The position numbers were made by a program, and so were the translations under genes. The notes beneath the pieces are model-generated. The model was not told the origin of the DNA. It saw only the letters and a program-made list of their open reading frames with translations, and did no database searches. This document shows, piece after piece, positions 25,445 through 26,789 of a stretch of 64,000 bases of DNA. The DNA is from Lactobacillus sp. W8174 (GTDB lineage: Bacteria > Bacillota > Bacilli > Lactobacillales > Lactobacillaceae), in assembly GCF_016100975.1 (NCBI RefSeq), contig NZ_JACFRN010000001.1, positions 372,001-436,000 of the forward strand, written 5' to 3'. The stretch's first letter is position 1. Every line of letters begins with the position of its first letter.

Positions 25445-25486
25445 GTAATAAATTTCTCCTAGCTTAATTTAATAAGTTACATGCTT

Positions 25487-25492
25487 TATTAT
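25487..25492 (-). promoter_or_regulatory. -10 box of the xerS promoter
   Basis: On the - strand this reads TATAAT, about 43 bases before the GTG start. The -35 is not recognisable. Confidence 0.5.
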
Positions 25493-25709
25493 AAAACAAA
25501 ACTAGAATGTATGTTTGAGTCGCATATACTTATTATGGAATGGAGAAGGGGGAAGCAAAAAACGGCTTTGTTATTTTTTAGGATAAATCTTTTAAAAAGT
25601 TTTAAATAGAAATTTCGGCTTTAATTTAAACTTATCAAAAAATTACATCCAGTTTTGCAAAAATCAATCAATGAATAAAAATATTTGAACTCGTTGATAA
25701 TTTTAATAT

Positions 25710-25739
25710 CTTTCATTAAAATTATAGTTTTAATGAAAG
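25710..25739. other. difSL-like recombination site (12-6-12 palindrome) upstream of xerS
   Basis: Left arm CTTTCATTAAAA and right arm TTTTAATGAAAG are perfect inverted repeats around the spacer TTATAG. The architecture (two recombinase arms and a six-base crossover region) is that of a Xer site. From memory, lactococcal difSL has arms CTTTCCGAAAAA and TTTTCTTGAAAA around CTATAA; the complement of this site matches 24 of 30 positions, including the whole spacer. Its place just upstream of xerS is also as in streptococci. Function is inferred. Confidence 0.7.
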
Positions 25740-26044
25740 CAACTGAAAAAACTTCATAGCTGACCGTATTCAAAACCTAAACCAAATTATTCGATCAAAC
25801 TTTAAATTCTCAAATTAAAACAATGTTGCTCAAATTGCTTATAGCTGCTTTTGATACAAAATCTACCAATGTTATCACTTTTAAAGTACTAATATTGGCT
25901 GATTCAAACTACTTGTTAATAAAAAATATTAACTAAACGAAAATTAGCTCTAATAATAATTCCTGGGAGACTCACAGGCAGCTAAATGATCAATTATACA
26001 CTCATTCAGTTTTTAACGAACTCTCAGATGACTTGTGTCAATCT

Positions 26045-26088
26045 AAAGAATTAGAAATTCATTTAAACAAAAGAATTTCTAATTCTTT
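26045..26088. terminator. Perfect 16-bp hairpin with T tract beside dif
   Basis: AAAGAATTAGAAATTC pairs without mismatch with GAATTTCTAATTCTTT around a 12-base loop, followed by two more T. It has terminator form on either strand but low GC content and no gene to terminate. It ends 28 bases before dif. Confidence 0.45.
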
Positions 26089-26116
26089 TTTACACGCTCT
26101 CCGTAATTTCTATTTT

Positions 26117-26144
26117 ACTTTACATAATATATATTATACGAAGT
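26117..26144 (-). other. dif: XerCD recombination site dif (replication terminus)
   Basis: On the - strand the XerC arm ACTTCGTATAA, the centre TATATA and the XerD arm TTATGTAAAGT make a 28-bp site. The B. subtilis dif, as I recall it, has arms ACTTCCTAGAA and TTATGTAAACT around the same centre, so 25 of 28 bases agree and the XerD arm differs at one. XerC (37498-38427) and XerD (57862-58770) are both encoded nearby. The site lies in the gene-free zone where gene polarity flips. Confidence 0.88.
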
Positions 26145-26541
26145 TATATCTTACTAAGCTGCAACTACCTCTTATCAAAATTTCTTACTTTATCAGCTCC
26201 ATTTAGATAGCTAAATCAATAATTTATAAGTACGATTTTTTATTTTGAATTTCTTCAAAAGTTTATTACGACAAACAAAAGTTGCCATTATTCCAAAAAC
26301 TATAATTTTATTTTGTATAATGTAAAATGATTTTTATTACTTATAACTTTTTAAAATTAATATGATTAGCCAGCCCTTTTCTTATCCAGATTAATTGATT
26401 TATTTAAAAATAATACTTTATAAGTGTAAAAATATAAATAAAAGCGCTTTCTAACATTGATAAATATATAAAACAATTGAAGTTTAATTTTTTTACATAA
26501 ACACTTTTCTACTTGCCTATCCAGCAAGCGAATACACGCTT

Positions 26542-26550
26542 TGATATAAT
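26542..26550 (+). promoter_or_regulatory. Orphan extended -10 element in the terminus region
   Basis: TGATATAAT is a consensus extended -10, 240 bases before the XRE regulator start. It could drive a long leader for that gene or a small RNA; no product is visible between. Confidence 0.35.
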
Positions 26551-26789
26551 ATTTGCCACTCTTTCCTTTTTCACTTTAAGTTTAATTATTTGGAGCTTTT
26601 TTATTTTATTTTTCCAAAAAATAGCTTACAATACTATGTGGGGTATAGTTTAAAACATTTAGTTTGAGTATAATTTTGCCAAAAGCAAGTGTTTTATTCA
26701 TTATTATTTTTGTTTTACTGTTTATTTCTATAATTAATCTGTTATTATAGAATATGGAATTATTTTTTTGAAAGGGTTGAATTTATTCC

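Follow-up and report, generated by a model that had tools for sequence, protein, structure and literature searches.

We confirmed that the replication terminus of Lactobacillus sp. W8174 carries two different Xer sites, a dif and a difSL-like palindrome, together with genes for XerC, XerD and a XerS-type recombinase, all inside the 64,000-nucleotide stretch of DNA analysed here (the window). An Xer system is normally described as having either two enzymes or a single one; this terminus has one of each kind, and many species share the arrangement. The presence, position and conservation of both systems, and the pattern of XerCD/dif loss among relatives, are evident from the genome sequences compared. 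They lead us to think it probable (about 0.78) that two active dimer-resolution systems coexist at such termini and that XerS/difSL has repeatedly made XerCD/dif dispensable.

Two Xer sites and three recombinases at one terminus

The features of the window are collected in Table 1. In 20-kb stretches sampled from the same contig, GC skew ranged from 0.004 to 0.142 to the left of the window (ten stretches) and from -0.062 to -0.131 to the right (seven stretches), and cumulative G-C reached its maximum inside the window at position 25618. The change of sign together with this maximum shows that this region is the replication terminus. The first-pass annotation had placed the terminus correctly and was mistaken only in expecting a GC-skew minimum, as the switch is a maximum in this orientation. 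The palindrome starts 92 bp and dif 499 bp from the switch. Both sites lie in a stretch of 1,345 bp bounded by xerS and a small HTH gene, in which no ORF of at least 80 aa was found, and the 377 bp reported to separate them there were recovered.

Table 1. Xer genes and sites at the terminus; positions are those of the window
Feature	Positions	Strand	Evidence
xerS, 362 aa, single-recombinase type tyrosine recombinase	24356..25444	-	NF003462, 470.8 bits (cut-off 267)
Gene-free terminus stretch with both sites	25445..26789		GC-skew switch at about 25618
difSL-like palindrome CTTTCATTAAAACTATAATTTTAATGAAAG, putative XerS site	25710..25739	-	Top match of the Streptococcaceae difSL matrix
dif ACTTCGTATAATATATATTATGTAAAGT, putative XerC/XerD site	26117..26144	-	Pattern match, shuffles, conservation
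xerC	37498..38463	-	TIGR02224, 339.6 bits (cut-off 335.15)
xerD	57862..58770	-	TIGR02225, 379.6 bits (cut-off 329.6)

The dif occupies exactly the coordinates first assigned to it. Its minus strand agrees at 25 of 28 positions with what we take to be the B. subtilis dif, the runner-up in the window reaching 19 of 28, and with up to three mismatches allowed it was the only match in the window, 100 shuffles giving none. No other sequence in its own genome fits the Lactobacillaceae dif pattern perfectly. A second dif-like sequence, with three mismatches, lies on contig 11 of this genome (148054-148081).

The palindrome consists of 13-bp arms around a 4-nt centre and lies 265 bp upstream of the xerS ORF. 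Its proposed likeness to difSL was upheld by a matrix that drew on 13 difSL sites of Streptococcus, Lactococcus and Floricoccus and on none of Lactobacillaceae. This matrix ranked the palindrome first in the window with 13.8 bits, against -7.3 bits for the runner-up there and at most 7.7 bits in 40 random Markov windows. With the bare palindrome pattern at up to three mismatches, it was the one site in the window, matched on both strands, and one of 100 shuffles also gave two matches.

Across five bee lactobacilli, dif was invariant at 28 of 28 positions and the palindrome at 24 of 30, the 30-bp blocks separating them being invariant at a fraction of 0.13-0.50. As the 240 bp ahead of the next gene (26550-26789) are strongly conserved too (0.83-1.00 invariant), conservation extends beyond the two sites. 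An inverted repeat adjoining dif (~26044-26090) was without conservation in these five. The Xre-type HTH protein near dif (26790-27149) is better conserved than its neighbours; its L. laiwuensis and L. melliventris counterparts are 100% identical to it, and that of L. bombicola 98%.

The three recombinase genes are complete and together span 34.4 kb, in agreement with the 34 kb given for them, and all score above their family cut-offs. XerS carries the catalytic positions R203, K227, H299, R302, Q325 and Y334, and all catalytic residues of XerD are there (R151, K178, H248, R251, H274 and Y283). The neighbours of xerC, one on each side, are presumably trmFO and hslV, and the gene order around xerD is what we take to be cvfB-xerD-ribT-scpA-scpB. 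Among the 80 named loci listed, the closest XerS was that of the bee species L. laiwuensis (97%), followed by L. huangpiensis (96%), which suggests that the window comes from a bee-associated Lactobacillus. The XerS of a locus labelled Faecalicatena absiana is 72% identical to that of the window; this assembly is perhaps mislabelled or contaminated. Most Lactobacillaceae XerS proteins have Gln at the fifth catalytic position (Q325 in the window). His occupies the equivalent position in 13 Streptococcaceae XerS and in XerC and XerD of the window, and also in a minority of Lactobacillaceae XerS, some of them plasmid-type.

Because both systems look intact and conserved, we consider it most likely that both are active in this strain, each on its own site. 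XerC and XerD would act on dif, and XerS would bind and recombine the palindrome as a relative of difSL, forming two complete and independent systems. Each would recombine copies of its own site on sister chromosomes, presumably in dependence on FtsK, and either alone could split a dimer. As the two sites differ, recombination between them would not be expected to delete the intervening DNA. Where both systems are kept, they may be redundant or share the work.

Co-occurrence of XerS, dif and palindromes in relatives

XerS above the family cut-off was found in 137 of 397 Lactobacillaceae genomes sampled, representing 14 of 40 genera (genus names for these groups are inferred), and in 97 of 295 Lactobacillales genomes; these and the following genome counts are raw, uncorrected for relatedness, and genomes are not independent events. 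The DNA upstream of xerS was read at 140 places in 136 genomes, and our own genome was added to the census by hand. Matrix thresholds were 25 for dif and 18 for difSL, the maxima in reversed DNA being 9.3 and 11.9, respectively. The matrices for this upstream scan and for the census were partly derived from the same genomes, and the Streptococcaceae matrix is independent of them.

Of the 137 XerS-positive genomes, 79 have a dif no more than 5 kb upstream of xerS, and in 76 of these the distance is at most 1.6 kb (median 933 bp). In this count, two xerS places with almost no upstream DNA (G047 and G290) were scored as dif not near, extra XerS copies (G322, G368 and G392) were merged per genome, and G392, dif-negative by pattern with a 4-mismatch dif by matrix, was classed as dif-linked. 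These three Lactobacillus genomes have two or three XerS genes, and some of the extra copies cluster with plasmid XerS. In 24 of the 137, dif was present, yet not within 5 kb upstream of xerS; some of these genomes have plasmid-type XerS.

The type-I palindrome pattern TCATTAAAACNNNNATTTTAATGA (at most one mismatch) was found in 68 of 137 XerS-positive genomes versus 0 of 260 XerS-negative genomes. Put the other way, 68 of the 397 Lactobacillaceae genomes have the pattern and all 68 have XerS; read backward as a control, it was found in 3 of 397. Within XerS-positive Limosilactobacillus, 5 of 18 genomes gave no match to it. Besides our own, 78 places are dif-linked. The palindrome there is of type I, as in the window, at 46 places, of type II (ACTTAATAAAA...TTTTATTAAGT) at 21 and of a third type at six; five have no recognised palindrome. 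All 46 type-I sites lie between dif and xerS. When either a matrix hit or 12 of 13 paired arm positions was accepted, 70 of the 79 dif-linked genomes had a palindrome. Since 23 of 138 stretches downstream of xerS likewise contained a palindrome pairing at 12 or 13 of 13 arm positions, palindromy alone is weak evidence, and it is the sequence match and the co-occurrence that speak for a difSL. A chance palindrome was ruled out by the difSL matrix score, conservation in the bee lactobacilli and co-occurrence with XerS.

The few central bases of the palindrome are inverted between some relatives with similar flanks (G257 versus G192 and G037; G148 versus G171; loci L183, L186, L187, L182 and L184). 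One guess is that template switching within the palindrome inverts them.

In many genera the palindrome is found ~75-125 bp upstream of xerS, where an operator or terminator of that gene might also be expected in place of a recombination site. However, the distance is variable, from 87 to 654 bp in Lactobacillus with dif nearby and from 91 bp to tens of kb in Limosilactobacillus, and the palindrome matches the Streptococcaceae difSL matrix, which makes this explanation highly improbable. A recombination site is the reading that we keep.

In a second Lactobacillales family, 10 of 12 genomes read had a dif no more than 5 kb upstream of xerS (16 in the sample are XerS-positive), two XerC/XerD-type genes were present in all three genomes tested, and a clear palindrome lay between dif and xerS in 2 of 12. 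The first-pass annotation had proposed a Lactobacillaceae survey of XerS and both sites, and had let its reading depend on conservation of the palindrome near xerS in relatives. Our survey found the pairing in many of the 397 genomes, and the palindrome is conserved near xerS in relatives. The idea of a single odd lineage has to be given up, as many genera of Lactobacillaceae have the pairing and dif is close to xerS in a second family. The annotation's alternative of a lineage caught between systems was nearly right and understated the case: the two systems coexist widely, and separate lineages with XerS have several times lost XerCD/dif.

Loss of XerCD/dif in XerS lineages

By pattern, dif was absent from 35 of 137 XerS-positive genomes versus 16 of 260 XerS-negative genomes, and 8 of these 16 are less than 90% complete. 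XerC/XerD-type genes (E up to 1e-50) were counted in 80 genomes that were chosen, not drawn: all 35 XerS-positive dif-negative genomes, 30 of 102 XerS-positive dif-positive genomes, 8 of 260 XerS-negative genomes and 7 from other families. Two such genes were present in 30 of 30 XerS-positive genomes with dif and in 8 of 8 without XerS. Among the 35 XerS-positive dif-negative genomes, five had two, 19 had one and 11 had none at this threshold, namely seven Ligilactobacillus genomes, G031, G078, G086 and G349. In a genus that we take for Streptococcus by inference (g43), three of four genomes had no XerC/XerD-type gene and one had a single weak match.

The remaining Xer gene could be followed in Limosilactobacillus. 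All 18 XerS-positive genomes of this genus lack dif and have a single Xer gene left; the four XerS-negative genomes all have dif, two Xer genes and intact catalytic residues. The leftover protein is closer to XerD than to XerC in 18 of 18, and its gene sits between an S1-domain gene (cvfB) and scpA in 18 of 18. The possibility that it is XerC was rejected, as synteny with scpA marks XerD. Its catalytic signature is broken, with the histidine of HxxR replaced in 18 of 18; in such diverged proteins the column of the catalytic Lys may be misaligned, and that of the HxxR His is firm. The four XerS-negative Limosilactobacillus genomes, the window and four further genomes that have both XerC and XerD all keep an intact signature.

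The Lactobacillus genome G322 has no xerC between trmFO and hslV, and its XerD, 55% identical to that of the window, has a broken signature; the XerD of G098 is 80% identical and intact. Neither xerC beside hslV nor xerD beside scpA was found in G283 and G116 (Ligilactobacillus), G078 and G031. As markers of the xerC locus, trmFO gave no match in 11 of 15 genomes and hslV none in 13 of 23, including all nine Limosilactobacillus genomes asked, so that the xerC locus did not come into view in these. In one genome of the presumed Streptococcus genus (G399), a 249-aa protein of the family NF002685 'XerD' (320 bits) is encoded directly ahead of scpA, and in a pairwise alignment it lacks the first catalytic Arg and the His. 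The streptococcal XerD-like gene therefore looks like the same sort of relic as the XerD of Limosilactobacillus.

As XerS is the sole Xer recombinase found in some lineages, XerS/difSL is most likely sufficient for dimer resolution, by which XerCD/dif would become dispensable and decay. In the proposed order, redundancy would allow dif and xerC to go first, the active site of XerD would then be lost, and XerD would finally vanish. Loss of XerCD/dif may also be favoured, since one resolver could reverse the work of the other if both acted in the same division.

Given that other lineages live without XerC, XerD and dif, XerS and the palindrome might be the only active resolver even in the window, with XerCD/dif left over for another task such as plasmid dimers. 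Four XerS-positive Lactobacillus genomes fit this idea, as G210, G286, G311 and G368 have two XerC/XerD-type genes and no convincing dif; they are exceptions to the pattern of loss, and the fifth dif-negative genome with two such genes is G392, with its 4-mismatch dif. A weak dif candidate in G311 scored 20.6 bits, and a diverged dif guessed from it was present in G311 alone among eight genomes asked. A type-I palindrome near xerS was not found in G286, G311 and G368, and in G210 it is 4.9 kb away. The idea is nonetheless quite unlikely for the window, where XerD keeps its active-site residues and dif is invariant in the five bee lactobacilli, whereas XerD has lost active-site residues in the dif-less XerS-positive Limosilactobacillus and G322. 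Two active systems remain our reading of the window.

Probable mobility of the xerS-site module and comparison with known systems

Among 16 named loci asked, the terminus of Lactobacillus and Lentilactobacillus lies between parE-parC-LysR-ppaC and DegV-NFACT; for Levilactobacillus brevis and Paucilactobacillus vaccinostercus, one flank is visible in the available DNA. xerS lies on the DegV side of dif in Lactobacillus and Lentilactobacillus kribbianus, with L. brevis consistent, and on the parC side in Lentilactobacillus parabuchneri, with P. vaccinostercus consistent. For the module to lie on opposite sides in Lactobacillus and L. parabuchneri, it must have inserted beside dif two or more times, or a rearrangement must have taken place there. 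In the XerS tree, L. kribbianus groups with Levilactobacillus, and its palindrome is type-I. The XerS of 19 other Lentilactobacillus genomes group elsewhere, with a type-II palindrome in 17 of the 18 that are dif-linked. As XerS clade and palindrome type thus shift jointly between L. kribbianus and its congeners, xerS and its site move together, and they most likely landed beside dif at least twice. In the proposed mechanism, the xerS-difSL module would have arrived repeatedly next to a dif that was already there, since only a site close to the terminus can serve in resolution.

XerS was found on 514 plasmid records, Lactobacillus plasmids among them, and some plasmid XerS nest in chromosomal clades of the tree. 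Because XerS is frequent on plasmids, it need not always serve the chromosome. Together with the three sampled Lactobacillus genomes that have two or three XerS genes, this lends itself to an explanation in which XerCD/dif resolves all chromosome dimers, and xerS and the palindrome are a parked module, derived from a plasmid or other element, that resolves something else. We consider this unlikely, as XerS is the sole Xer recombinase found at our threshold in 11 of 35 XerS-positive dif-negative genomes, the palindrome is kept beside dif across genera, and none of eight plasmid xerS loci read (600 bp upstream) has a type-I palindrome.

Overall, coexistence of two chromosomal resolvers remains our preferred reading, and with odds slightly better than even we would extend it to a model in which XerS/difSL travels as a portable module that has time and again settled next to dif and displaced XerCD/dif in Lactobacillales. 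The dual terminus would then be an intermediate that persists for long, and the single-recombinase system of streptococci, whose XerD-like gene by scpA is broken, would have arisen likewise. Relatives show what seem to be stages: some have both systems, some a broken XerD and some XerS alone. With such a series, the origin of the streptococcal system would become open to testing. Loss of the older system in relatives may explain why streptococci use only the newer one. The natural losses of XerCD/dif are open to study, the series suggests an identity for the streptococcal XerD-like gene, and dual-terminus lactobacilli should permit direct tests of redundancy or interference between resolvers.

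The XerS/difSL system of streptococci and lactococci is reportedly the subject of work by Le Bourgeois in 2007. Like that system, the window has a XerS-family recombinase with a difSL-like site close upstream, at the terminus, and the palindrome matches the 13 Streptococcaceae difSL sites at 21-23 of 29 positions without gaps. Unlike it, the window also has XerC, XerD and dif, so XerS is not the sole Xer system, and its XerS has Gln, not His, at the fifth catalytic position. In the part of the source available, difSL is defined as a 31-bp site with an 11-bp centre and unequal arms, one a base longer (PMC5357621); the window palindrome is symmetric (13+4+13) and departs from the unequal-arm definition. 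Two recombinases above their cut-offs and a canonical dif near the skew switch resemble the CodV/RipX/dif system of the B. subtilis type, from which the window differs in having a second Xer system with its site so close to dif.

In the portions available, Castillo 2017 (PMC5357621), Carnoy and Roten 2009 (PMC2731167) and a 2022 Legionellales paper (PMC9765430) place XerS in streptococci and lactococci, a 2021 survey of tyrosine recombinases has a single mention of XerS (PMC8138268), and those of PMC8074189, PMC5345009 and PMC4494060 hold nothing on a two-system terminus. In open-licence PubMed Central, outside which most subscription papers lie, neither a terminus with two sites nor repeated XerCD/dif loss was found described. 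The nearest precedent found, in the available part of Kono 2011 (PMC3025954), is L. helveticus DPC 4571, which has XerS, XerC and XerD, with xerS near the skew shift; a possible evolutionary intermediate by horizontal transfer was suggested, and neither dif nor a XerS site was found there. G210, G286, G311 and G368 resemble that strain in their XerS, two XerC/XerD-type genes and lack of a convincing dif. The window goes beyond the L. helveticus case in that it yielded both sites, and its relatives allowed us to map where the pairing occurs and where losses have followed.
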